Shown: one piece after another, positions 2,390-23,933 of the stretch
How the letters are laid out: the number at the start of each line of letters is the position of its first letter
Numbering within the stretch: the stretch's first letter is position 1
IMG/VR virus record: IMGVR_UViG_3300025127_000095
Span: 1 to 38,375 of that record
Source of the DNA: a virus
Direction: 5' to 3' (one strand)
DNA length: 38,375 bases
Notes under the pieces: model-generated
Seen by the model: only the letters and a program-made list of their open reading frames with translations
What the model was told of the DNA's origin: nothing
Database searches by the model: none
Position numbers and translations under genes: made by a program

Positions 2390-2773
2390 ATGTGGACAGC
2401 CCTTATAGGTCCAGTTTCAGAGTTGGCAGGAACTTGGTTAAAAGGTTCTGTAGAAAAATCAAAAGCAAAGACGGAAGCAAAAGTAGCTAAAGCAAAAGCT
2501 GAAGCTACAATAATGGAAAAGAAAGCCACTGGAGAAATTGATTGGGATTTGGAAATGGCTCGTGCCTCATCGTCAAGTTGGAAAGACGAGTGGTTAGTAA
2601 TACTGTTTTCAATCCCATTAATTTTAGCTTTCATTCCGGGTATGGAAGAAGTAGTTGCTAATGGTTTTAAACAATTAGAAATGATGCCTGAATGGTATCA
2701 ATATAGTTTAGGGGTTATCGTAGCTGCCAGCTTCGGTGTCCGTAGTGCTACTAAGTTCTTCGGTAAGAAGTAG
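2390..2773 (+). CDS. Holin of the GTA_holin_3TM type
   Basis: This 127-residue protein begins MWTALIGPVSELAGTWLKG, then has a Lys/Ala-rich helix at about 20-48, typical of the family called holin of 3TMs for gene transfer release. Hydrophobic segments follow at about 68-84 and 104-117; the N-terminal segment may be the third. It would form lesions in the inner membrane at lysis. GGGAGATAGG precedes the ATG. The last 66 bases are overlapped on the other strand by the small terminase gene, so two operons converge here without a clear terminator. This is one of two holin-like genes flanking the lysozyme. Confidence 0.85.
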   Translation: MWTALIGPVSELAGTWLKGSVEKSKAKTEAKVAKAKAEATIMEKKATGEIDWDLEMARASSSSWKDEWLVILFSIPLILAFIPGMEEVVANGFKQLEMMPEWYQYSLGVIVAASFGVRSATKFFGKK

Positions 2774-3211
2774 TTCGTCATCCTCTTCTTCATTATTAAA
2801 CTCATCTGGGAAAGCTTCTGCAAAAAGAAGAAAACATTGTTCAAAGCCTAGAGCTTGCATAATTCCTTTTATGTCTTCCTCTAGGCTTTCTGTTGTTTGG
2901 TCTTCTACGTCTGTATTATTACCTCTTACACGAGACAACAACTCCAAAGCTTTTAAAGCTGTTGTTCCGTGTCCACCATTACGAGCTACTTCATATTGCT
3001 TTTCAATCTCACTGACCACATCTACATTGGTCACCATTTCATTAGTAAGTTCTTTAAGCCTTTCTTGTATTCGTTCTTCTTGTAAAAGTCTATGACCTTG
3101 GTTATAGGCAGAGGACTCACTATATCCTGCAGCCTTTGCCGCTTTCGTAGCATTTCGACTGAGGACATAGTTCTGACAAAACTGTTCTTGCTTATCATTA
3201 AGCTGCGACAT
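2708..3211 (-). CDS. terS: Terminase small subunit
   Basis: The N-terminal 50 residues carry the small-terminase helix-turn-helix: LNDKQEQFCQNYVLSRNATK followed by AAKAAGYSESSAYNQG, as in terminase_2 family DNA-recognition subunits. The middle forms helices for oligomerisation and the C-terminus is very acidic (EEEDDELL). It would recognise phage DNA and hand it to the large subunit, whose gene is 21 kb away on the other strand at 23933. The start overlaps the end of the glycosyltransferase gene by 14 bases. The last 22 codons lie antisense to the holin gene. At 167 residues the length is normal. Confidence 0.87.
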   Translation of the reverse strand: MSQLNDKQEQFCQNYVLSRNATKAAKAAGYSESSAYNQGHRLLQEERIQERLKELTNEMVTNVDVVSEIEKQYEVARNGGHGTTALKALELLSRVRGNNTDVEDQTTESLEEDIKGIMQALGFEQCFLLFAEAFPDEFNNEEEDDELLLTEELSSTTDTEAGSYDNP

Positions 3212-21877: not shown

Positions 21878-22477
21878 TTATTTGATGCCTAACCAATCAC
21901 AGTGAAGCTTTGAAACTGCTTCGCCTGTACCGTATAGCTCTGGAAATTTCTCAGTACCAATCAATTCGCACCAACTATTCCAAAGATATTCACATCCGCC
22001 TTGTTCCTCACAAGCTTGGATATATAGTTCTGCTTTCATCCGTCTAAGCTTGTCAGATGCAGTCTTACCAAACTTGAAAGTCTTTGCTTCCAGCCCGAAC
22101 CTTTGCAGGTTGTGAGTATCCATGCATCCAACCTCGCCAATGCATAACTGCATGATAAACCCTGCCTTTGCCAATCCGATACCGTTCATTCTGGACAATT
22201 CAACAAGACAATCAACAAGCTTTATTTTGCCAAGCTTGGCATCTTTCAGAACACGATAAATCTTTTTCTTGTTCTGCATAACGTAGTCATACGTTTGCTC
22301 TTTCATTCCCCAACAAAACTTTGAAGCTTTGCCTTTGTCCAGAATATCCCGATATTCATCGAATACCCTTGGCGTTTGAGTTTGTATCGTTGCCGATACT
22401 AGCAAACAGACCTTTGCGGTATTGTCTACAGACCGCATAGCCCATTTGCTGATTTTAGTTTGATGCGTTTTGAACAT
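21878..22477 (-). CDS. HhH-GPD-like protein, possible DNA glycosylase homologue
   Basis: A 199-residue protein whose middle resembles the helix-hairpin-helix core of base-excision glycosylases: LSRMNGIGLAKAGFIMQL (94-111), then GEVGCMDTHNLQRFGL, where Asp120 sits like the conserved Asp of the VDTHV motif. The position of the catalytic Lys of endonuclease III (GVGRK) is Ala here (GIGLA), so it would be a monofunctional glycosylase or only a DNA-binding relative. AGAAAGG lies upstream of the ATG. It is the second leftward gene after the regulatory region. Confidence 0.72.
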   Translation of the reverse strand: MFKTHQTKISKWAMRSVDNTAKVCLLVSATIQTQTPRVFDEYRDILDKGKASKFCWGMKEQTYDYVMQNKKKIYRVLKDAKLGKIKLVDCLVELSRMNGIGLAKAGFIMQLCIGEVGCMDTHNLQRFGLEAKTFKFGKTASDKLRRMKAELYIQACEEQGGCEYLWNSWCELIGTEKFPELYGTGEAVSKLHCDWLGIK

Positions 22478-22512
22478 GATTGATTGACCCTTTCTGGTCG
22501 GTTGTTTTTCCA

Positions 22513-22570
22513 GCGTTATAAGAATAATATAATATACCCTAAAGGGTATATGTATTATTCTAATATTTCC
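22513..22570 (-). repeat. Hairpin element 1 (GCGTTATAAG ... TAATATTTCC)
   Basis: GCGTTATAAG (22513-22522) and TAATATTTCC (22561-22570) flank a long stem: nine base pairs (21-29 with 53-61), a small internal loop, and nine more (32-40 with 43-51, counting from 22500). It shares its flanks but not its stem sequence with elements 2 and 3. The stop codon of the 58-residue gene lies in its right arm. Confidence 0.75.
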
Positions 22571-22731
22571 ATTGGTTTAGTATCGACCAAAAGCTTTATG
22601 TCTAAGCAATACGGTGATTGAACTAAATTTAATTCTTCAAGATGTTTTTTGATTATCTCAGTAATGACCATCTGGTCTTTCAGTTCTAAATCAGCCAACG
22701 TGAAAAGTCTTGTTGTTGATTTTTGCGTCAT
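22555..22731 (-). CDS. 58-residue hypothetical protein, first leftward gene
   Basis: MTQKSTTRLFTLADLELKDQ followed by MVITEIIKKHLEELNLVQSP, ending TKPMEILE. GGGAGA lies upstream of the ATG. It is the gene closest to the regulatory region and sits between hairpin elements 1 and 2, so it is probably the earliest leftward product. Soluble; no recognised motif. Confidence 0.65.
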   Translation of the reverse strand: MTQKSTTRLFTLADLELKDQMVITEIIKKHLEELNLVQSPYCLDIKLLVDTKPMEILE

Positions 22732-22763
22732 GGCTATGTCTCCCGATTGAAGCTCGATTTTTG

Positions 22764-22818
22764 GCGTTATAAGGATATCATCCCTTTACTTCGTAAAGGG
22801 TGATATACTAATATTTCC
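22764..22818 (-). repeat. Hairpin element 2
   Basis: GCGTTATAAG (22764-22773) and TAATATTTCC (22809-22818) flank a stem in which CCCTTTAC pairs with GTAAAGGG (22782-22789 with 22793-22800; loop TTC). It continues after one bulged base through a second helix of six or more pairs. It has the same architecture as element 3, with different stem bases. Confidence 0.78.
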
Positions 22819-22925
22819 GAGCAATCAAGCTTTTATTTTCAAGCTTTCAAAACGTCAAAATCGAATTGCGAAAATCTGATTTTAAATTTTTGAATTGAGC
22901 TTGAATTTTGAAGCCCCGATTTGGG

Positions 22926-22981
22926 GCGTTATAAGTATATCTATCCTTTACTACCGTAAAGGAAGATATACGTAATATTCC
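22926..22981 (-). repeat. Hairpin element 3
   Basis: GCGTTATAAG (22926-22935) and TAATATTCC (22973-22981) flank TCCTTTAC paired with GTAAAGGA (22944-22951 with 22956-22963; loop TACC). A bulged A at 22943 follows, then eight more pairs, GTATATCT (22935-22942) with AGATATAC (22964-22971). There is no T-tract after the stem on either strand. Confidence 0.8.
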
Positions 22982-23037
22982 AGCGATTTTGGGTGATTTT
23001 TGGGCAGTTTTTCTTCATCAAAAACCTCAGCATTTTG

Positions 23038-23055
23038 TGTGACATTTTTGCAACA
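23038..23055 (+). repeat. 18-bp dyad site 1
   Basis: TGTGACATTTTTGCAACA, an imperfect 7-4-7 dyad (TGTGACA and TGCAACA). Identical copies are at 23316-23333 and 23343-23360. Confidence 0.8.
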
Positions 23056-23102
23056 GCAGACTGGTAATGATGAAACAAAAAGACATGGGAAATTGTAACA
23101 AA

Positions 23103-23183
23103 ATTTTGGGAAAACCTAATGAATACAACGTGTAACTGCATAAATGGGGAGGGTAGGTGTGTCATAAATGCAACATTATACGG
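23103..23183 (+). repeat. 81-bp tandem repeat, copy 1
   Basis: Identical base for base to the copy that follows directly. It begins ATTTTGGGAAAACC and ends ATTATACGG, and contains the dyad variant TGTGTCATAAATGCAACA at 23158-23175. The length is 27 codons, so frames stay open through it on both strands. Confidence 0.93.
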
Positions 23184-23264
23184 ATTTTGGGAAAACCTAA
23201 TGAATACAACGTGTAACTGCATAAATGGGGAGGGTAGGTGTGTCATAAATGCAACATTATACGG
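23184..23264 (+). repeat. 81-bp tandem repeat, copy 2
   Basis: Perfect second copy of the 81-bp unit, with the dyad variant at 23239-23256. Perfect identity implies recent duplication or active homogenisation. Confidence 0.93.
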
Positions 23265-23315
23265 GGATATTGCCTAAGAATTGTGCAGAATCTCAGCAAA
23301 ACTGGGAAAAATCAG

Positions 23316-23333
23316 TGTGACATTTTTGCAACA
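23316..23333 (+). repeat. 18-bp dyad site 4
   Basis: Exact copy of TGTGACATTTTTGCAACA. Its start is 27 bases before the next copy. Confidence 0.8.
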
Positions 23334-23342
23334 AACTAAATC

Positions 23343-23360
23343 TGTGACATTTTTGCAACA
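23343..23360 (+). repeat. 18-bp dyad site 5
   Basis: Exact copy of TGTGACATTTTTGCAACA, followed 15 bases later by the second TTGCCTAA motif (23375-23392). Confidence 0.8.
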
Positions 23361-23669
23361 CTAAAAAGTATTGTTTGCCTAAAATTTGTGCAATCTTGAC
23401 AAGTTTTTACAAAACCCCAACCAAAAAAATGTCTGTCTATTTATATATATAATATACCCCTGACATAAATTTTCAAAAATAAAAGGGTCTTTCATCCGGG
23501 GGCTAATTAGTTAATATAAATAATACTAGTATAATAAGTATGAATATAGTATAATTAATTTGTAGGTGTGTCGGGTTTAGCTGGGTATGTATTTACCCCG
23601 GTGGGTCTAGATATAAGATAACATATTTATTTAGACTCTGCAATACCCCCATGCAAATATTTATTTTAC

Positions 23670-23687
23670 TGTTGCAATTATGCAACA
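23670..23687 (+). repeat. 18-bp dyad site 6 (perfect palindromic arms)
   Basis: TGTTGCAATTATGCAACA: here both 7-base arms are perfect complements (TGTTGCA and TGCAACA). It lies 22 bases before the first rightward gene, where a bound protein could block transcription or translation of the packaging genes. Confidence 0.75.
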
Positions 23688-23708
23688 CTTTACAGAAAGA
23701 AGATTAAA

Positions 23709-23933
23709 ATGTTTACAGCAGTAATAGTTGCTTGTCATATTGCTAGTGCAGATATGTGTATGACAATTGTAGATAATCGTGGACCATATGATACAGAAGA
23801 CAAATGTAAAGCACGTATTAGTGAGATGGCAGAAAACTTAATAGGTGTTTGGGTTTCCTTTCAAATGCCTATGGTATTTAAAATGACAAGTTGTGTACAT
23901 CCAGATAACTTTGTAGAAAAAACGCATACATAA
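23709..23933 (+). CDS. Small Cys-containing protein before the large terminase
   Basis: A 74-residue protein, MFTAVIVACHIASADMCMTI, then DNRGPYDTEDKCKARISEMA and TSCVHPDNF. The hydrophobic start and four spaced cysteines could mean an exported, disulfide-containing protein, but there is no clear signal cleavage site. AGAAAGAAG precedes the ATG. It ends with TAATG overlapping terL. I recall short proteins of this kind in marine phages, without known function. Confidence 0.75.
   Translation: MFTAVIVACHIASADMCMTIVDNRGPYDTEDKCKARISEMAENLIGVWVSFQMPMVFKMTSCVHPDNFVEKTHT

Follow-up and report, generated by a model that had tools for sequence, protein, structure and literature searches.

The early leftward genes of an uncultured marine phage and of its relatives are preceded by bulged hairpins in which pairing, bulge and feet are maintained and sequence is not. 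These elements belong to the starts of promoter-proximal leftward genes, and copies of them are exchanged as units between genes and between genomes. Arms that change or are swapped together, with pairing kept, point to a structural control element that has gone unrecognised. Inverted repeats associated with phage gene starts have been without an assigned function since 2011, and the hairpins described here add an independent, marine case that spans several lineages. Evolution has nearly removed the sequence and left the structure, and the readable feature (paired length, bulge, feet, and distance to the Shine-Dalgarno sequence, SD) can therefore be defined without experiment.

Three hairpins at the head of a leftward operon

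The window, that is, the whole stretch of DNA analysed here, is a virus record in IMG/VR with a length of 38,375 bases. Its leftward genes include those for helicase-primase, DNA polymerase I, an endonuclease and RNR, its rightward structural genes those for TerL, portal and capsid, and a non-coding stretch of ~900 bp separates the two diverging sets. Only one good sigma-70-like site is found in that stretch; it points leftward and its core is conserved in relatives. The features that matter for what follows are collected in Table 1.

Table 1. Features at the head of the leftward operon; element parts are given in + strand coordinates
Feature	Position	Strand	Parts and remarks
199-aa ORF	21878..22477	-	Downstream of E1; no Pfam or PHROG family
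Hairpin E1 (site A)	22513..22570	-	Between the 58-aa and 199-aa ORFs; flank 22513-22522, left arm 22523-22539, loop TAAA 22540-22543, right arm 22544-22559, right flank 22560-22570; covariance model 68.8 bits
58-aa ORF	22555..22731	-	First gene of the leftward operon; stop codon within E1
Hairpin E2 (extra leader copy)	22764..22818	-	Flank 22764-22773, left arm 22774-22789 (bulge T 22781), loop TTC 22790-22792, right arm 22793-22807, right flank 22808-22818; covariance model 56.2 bits
Hairpin E3 (site B, leader)	22926..22981	-	Flank 22926-22935, left arm 22936-22951 (bulge A 22943), loop TACC 22952-22955, right arm 22956-22970, right flank 22971-22981; covariance model 47.2 bits
Promoter-like site TTGAAA-16-TATTAT	23449..23476	-	Candidate promoter for the leftward operon; overlaps AGGGGTATATTATATATA (23444-23461)

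A sequence-only reading of this DNA had described three hairpins with identical flanks at these positions, and the description holds. The motif GCGTTATAAG occurs exactly three times in the window, with no further copy at one mismatch, and each time it is followed by a hairpin and then by TAATATT(T)CC; the elements end in TAATATTTCC (E1 and E2) or TAATATTCC (E3). The pairs given there as examples, 22782/22800 and 22944/22963, are correct. The bulge position that it had seen in two elements extends to the third, since E1, E2 and E3 all have their unpaired base or bases on the left (+ strand) arm, with 7 bp between bulge and stem foot. The placement in the leader of the leftward operon, with one hairpin across a stop codon, is likewise supported: E3 and E2 lie downstream of the promoter-like site, and it is E1 that overlaps the stop of the 58-aa ORF. 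E2 lies upstream of that ORF, ~42 nt from its ATG, and E1 is similarly placed ~45 nt before the ATG of the 199-aa gene.

Folding z-scores of the three elements are about -4 to -6 on both strands. A strict Watson-Crick search for bulged hairpins with a score of at least 13 finds three in the window, namely E2, E3 and a hairpin within a coding region; of 30 Markov copies made from the whole 38 kb, 29 contain none and the remaining copy has one. E1 is missing from the strict set because it includes one G.T pair, which is a wobble on the + strand and not on the expected transcript. The covariance model R1, built from a padded seed after the MAFFT alignment A2 had mixed two hairpin architectures, has the three elements as its only confident matches in the window.

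Several other features of this region deserve a record. The stretch AGGGGTATATTATATATA (- strand) is present in the leaders of close relatives, and partially in L223. It has AGGGGTATATTATAT in common with the bulged arm of the site-A hairpins of L125, L126 and L127, and either of the two, hairpin arm or promoter region, may be the source of the other. Dyads of the type TGTGACA-N4-TGCAACA and variants give eight pattern matches (six sites) at 23038-23687, vs 0.03 expected; they cluster round the leftward promoter-like site and just before the gene at 23709, are conserved in relatives, and are likely operators or iterons. At 23103-23264 an 81-bp segment is duplicated perfectly in tandem. Contig L049/L124, near-identical in other respects, has it once, and the duplication is either very recent or an assembly artefact. 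The 199-aa protein has a stretch, LSRMNGIGLAKAGF..GCMDTH, that by eye resembles helix-hairpin-helix/glycosylase sequences. The terminase small subunit (Pfam Terminase_2) is encoded at 2708-3211 on the - strand, ~21 kb from the large subunit.

Paired change and stem exchange among relatives

The close relatives have a terminase or a 199-aa protein 74-100% identical to that of the window. Every close relative with an intact region carries a hairpin at site A, between the first two genes, and another at site B, in the leader. Within the window clade the flanks, the 7-bp outer stem and the bulge on a fixed arm are conserved, and orientation is fixed. The stems at site A (AATAATA/TATTATT, TATAATA/TATTATA, ATAAATA/TATTTAT) differ by paired changes. 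In one relative (L054) the small ORF between the two sites has been replaced by unrelated sequence, and both hairpins remain. Further out, with a terminase 75% identical, L223, L231 and L218 have a hairpin in the same place with a different stem, the same feet TTATAAG...CTAATA, and a left-arm bulge 7 bp from the foot. The three elements of the window recur unchanged in a second assembly, L049. A second repeated element, centred around CCTAGGAT(A/T)..ATG(G/A)CAAGCCC, ~90 bp long and with arms of its own, occurs beside or between the hairpins in the leftward leaders of L126 and L054 only.

A loose pattern scan of viral contigs returned 120 stretches, nearly all of them chance matches; the real ones are in L010, L024, L037, L049, L054 and L107. 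The exact element pattern gave 19 matches in bacterial and archaeal genomes, none of them a hairpin, and a nucleotide search among named phages gave no match. The nearest named relatives are the pelagiphages HTVC027P, HTVC023P and HTVC103P and phage 023Pt_psg01 (TerL 37-39%, or DNA polymerase ~47%), and the stretches read from these four contain no such bulged hairpins. HTVC027P and 023Pt_psg01 also have a 199-aa leftward gene at the corresponding place, a likeness of length and location alone.

More distant relatives have different hairpin families in the leftward operon, with up to 10 copies per genome. In G004 and G011 (records of 57 and 37.5 kb) all 10 of 10 hairpins each lie in that operon, 0.9-6 kb upstream of TerL, and none elsewhere; they share the feet TTAA...TTAA around very different inner stems. 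Three hairpins each were found in G005, L175 and L188; those of G005 have a 23-bp stem bulged by 4 nt, and those of L175 are AT-only, 24 bp long and bulged by 1 nt. Counted pairs per element range from 15 to 24 and bulges from 1 to 5 nt. In the leftward RNA, most groups carry the bulge in the 3' arm, and the G004/G011 and L175 types carry it in the 5' arm. The L188, L175 and G005 families show a one-armed asymmetry of 1-5 nt, and in G004-type stems the right (+) arm is 2-3 nt longer by way of short tandem repeats next to the loop. Among 48 distinct leader regions, 25 contain a hairpin with a score of at least 13, vs none in Markov copies. The element class is thus broader than the sequence-only reading saw: multi-copy, associated with start codons, and with stems swapped between genes. 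That reading had proposed looking in related phages for copies and for substitutions that break pairing; copies are present in close and in distant relatives and nearly all changes preserve pairing, so that the outcome of this search did not refute it.

Stems are kept while their sequence is free. In A6, an alignment of 14 distinct window-type elements that is model-fitted, and so biased to structure, but essentially gap-free in the outer stem, 97.7% of cells are paired. Each of the 16 stem pairs has at least one two-sided change, and one-sided changes number zero. Double-changed cells amount to 78 vs 22 in shuffles (0 of 500 shuffles reach 78), and in slid controls the paired fraction falls to 36-56%. 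An independent family, A5, brings together 18 elements of G004-type phages in an alignment made from sequence only; here 93.5% of cells are paired, with 66 double-changed cells vs 20 in shuffles. Wobble pairs are missing from both: A6 has no G.T and no A.C in 220 cells, and A5 has no G.T. A wobble tally from permissive folds was dominated by chance hairpins and was excluded. The earlier proposal that constant flanks with covarying stems reflect selection on structure is supported, as nearly all changes in the relatives keep pairing.

Whole stems also move. The stem before a gene differs from the stems before its orthologues in other relatives, and the same stem is found ahead of several unrelated genes. 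The clearest case is the gene beginning MRKCCCC in L191 and L336, where the DNA on either side hardly differs, feet and loop match, and the two arms have been replaced jointly and still pair; the contigs concerned are metagenome assemblies, in which 43-bp repeats can be mis-joined. Intermediates are missing because of block exchange among copies, or of repeated copying of one arm from the other. The second of these processes belongs to a reading in which the palindromes maintain themselves with little or no function, quasi-palindrome template switching copying arm to arm and ectopic recombination moving stems. Purely double-sided changes, many of them A-T to T-A, would fit it, as would the finding of the same stem before different genes and of different stems before orthologous ones. 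However, arm copying would erase bulges and asymmetric arms, whereas these persist; feet and bulge distance are conserved between the window clade and L223; sites A and B are occupied in every close relative; and the association with start codons and the confinement to one operon are strong. We regard self-maintenance as the least probable of the explanations considered in this article.

A bolder proposal takes the start-site element to be structure-only and sequence-free, its whole stem a swappable cassette. Copies would be converted or exchanged within one phage genome or from one to another, with no change in feet, loop, bulge or neighbouring genes. The folded DNA or RNA hairpin would be read by a phage or host factor controlling each early gene, a mode of gene control undescribed for phages. 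We consider this unlikely. Whole-stem exchange with both arms together bears in any case on how palindromes evolve in phage genomes, and the hairpins supply natural compensatory variants for direct tests.

Position before start codons and candidate roles

Among 40 distinct hairpins with a score of at least 14, 29 are followed leftward, at a distance of 14-83 nt (mostly 14-43), by an SD and the ATG of an open frame; the controls gave 1 of 40 in the rightward direction and 22% at random positions. Genes with an upstream gap tend to carry a hairpin, and tightly coupled genes lack one. Hairpins also occur in leaders with no preceding gene, and are therefore tied to the downstream start and not to an upstream 3' end or stop.

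Our preferred reading, offered tentatively, is that the start-associated bulged hairpins have their role in the leftward mRNA, where they may be processing sites of the RNase III type or insulating sites. A hairpin of 15-24 bp with a small one-armed bulge would stand in the 5' untranslated stretch of an early or replication gene, just before the SD. In the leftward mRNA it would form a bulged double helix of about two turns, recognised by a structure-specific factor. The simplest such factor would be host RNase III, cutting the polycistronic early message before each start site, as in T7; the downstream gene would gain a new 5' end, and the upstream message would keep a protective hairpin. Alternatively, the hairpins might insulate or stabilise each cistron. 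Covariation, the leftward SD and ATG placement, the confinement to one operon, and the fixed orientation and bulge arm in the window clade all argue for a role in mRNA. So does paired length, as the counted pairs correspond to about two A-form turns, within the helix lengths of RNase III sites.

Some facts pull the other way. The strongest is the near absence of wobble pairs. Stems selected as RNA usually contain some G-U, and pairing at the level of DNA, or arm copying, therefore fits at least as well. In addition, the bulge arm differs between groups, which does not match the geometry expected of a single strict RNase III site; the window-clade flanks are conserved in sequence, which an enzyme that purely reads length would not need; and about half of the sampled leader regions lack a strong hairpin.

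The main rival is accordingly a DNA hairpin: a palindrome, extruded or folded single-stranded, that is bound as a hairpin in replication, in recombination between copies, or in transcription from a folded promoter, the bulge marking the strand. Its probability seems to us rather low, below that of an mRNA role. The near absence of wobble applies to either strand, the palindromes are AT-rich, and both arms are replaced simultaneously between near-identical flanks. Loops with a 5'-C...G-3' closing pair, among them C-GAA-G and C-GGTA-G of the leftward strand, seem to us to resemble stable mini-loops known in DNA. Tight one-direction placement before SD and ATG would not be needed for replication or recombination, however, and candidate partners did not appear: no Y1 transposase or tyrosine recombinase in 11 records, and no match to a T7-type RNA polymerase in an RNA_pol family search run without a positive control. 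The largest ORF in G004 is 1267 aa and G001 and G008 have none larger, so these three contain no virion polymerase of N4 size.

The hairpins could instead mark promoter modules like the PeSLs (promoter-early stem-loops) or ESAS (extended start-associated sequences), a promoter with an inverted repeat, with or without a terminator stem, before each early gene. Placement and size match ESAS, the modular shuffling resembles descriptions of PeSLs, TATAAC/TATAAA follows the stem in the window clade, the E1 inner stem is terminator-like on both strands, and G004-type stems often end in T4-T6. Against this, only two sigma-70-like sites are found at 22400-23720, fewer than in shuffles (6.4), and the good one is 480-890 nt upstream of the hairpins. 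No hexamer stands at a fixed spacing across groups, and several families have AT-only stems or lack a T-tract. In G004-type copies the distance from stem foot to ATG is as little as 14-15 nt with the SD included, and therefore leaves no room for a -10 to +1 interval. Promoter modules are thus improbable.

The sequence-only reading had held that the hairpins lack T-tracts and are not ordinary terminators. For E2 and E3, which were not flagged as terminators, this is right; in E1 the inner stem was flagged as weakly terminator-like on both strands. Intrinsic termination, which calls for a GC-rich stem and then a T-run on the transcribed strand, was rejected for most copies; the stems of L175 are AT-only, and some G004-type stems do end in T4-T6. 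Sigma-70 promoters are disfavoured for most copies too, and the several roles that the reading had listed look alike in sequence.

Comparison with known systems

Several known elements were considered and set aside. No Rfam 15 family matched the window at gathering score, and a riboswitch was dropped from consideration. CRESS nonanucleotides have TAATATTAC in the loop, and here TAATATT is outside the stem. For integron attC sites, Phage_integrase was absent from the 11 records, and the feet are TTATAAG/CTAATA or TTAA/TTAA and not RYYYAAC/GTTRRRY. The folded promoters of N4 are 5-7 bp hairpins used by a virion RNA polymerase of ~3500 aa, far from stems of 15-24 bp and from the ORF sizes given above. 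REP elements and IS200/IS605 ends are similar as imperfect bulged palindromes with conserved feet and several copies per genome, but the hairpins here have a fixed orientation, keep to one operon and are tied to start codons. The Y1 (HUH) search that found nothing in the 11 records was positive in five control genomes, and a host enzyme could act in trans.

The intercistronic RNase III sites of T7 are bulged stems of about two helical turns, between or before early genes, with weak sequence demands. At T7 R1.1, RNase III cuts one bond (PMC4858673). The likeness, known here from comparison of genomes, lies in a two-turn stem with a bulge, intercistronic in an early operon; the differences are the feet conserved within a clade, the lack of wobble pairs, up to 10 copies per genome, and wholesale exchange of stems. 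Similarly, the PeSLs of T4-type phages, as described in a paper that cites them (PMC4503421), are stem-loop modules between small early genes and are associated with gene shuffling, a likeness in both respects. To the extent of that citing description, the present elements differ in that most copies are without a detectable early promoter and stems are exchanged while neighbouring genes stay. A PeSL couples a strong early promoter to a terminator stem-loop, and no promoter recurs consistently in the window or in the leaders inspected.

Among named elements, the ESAS of cluster K mycobacteriophages come closest. These multi-copy inverted repeats stand in one orientation before the start codons of non-structural genes, for the most part where the gap upstream of the gene is larger, and their consensus varies between subclusters (PMC3203893; PMC11373665). 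Within a genome the arms follow a sequence consensus (a 17-bp arm), and the repeats adjoin a 13-bp SAS at the start codon (PMC3203893; PMC11373665). In phage Adephagia they comprise putative SigA promoters plus an inverted repeat (PMC11373665). Our hairpins share the inverted repeat just upstream of non-structural gene starts and the single orientation. However, arms within one genome differ freely by double-sided changes instead of following a 17-bp consensus, sigma-70 type -35/-10 hexamers are lacking (by scan in the window, by inspection in leaders), the stems are bulged, and no SAS-like 13-mer was seen. As the arm consensus and the promoter features fail, we do not class the hairpins as ESAS; by analogy, they may nevertheless work like ESAS, PeSLs or the RNase III sites of T7.
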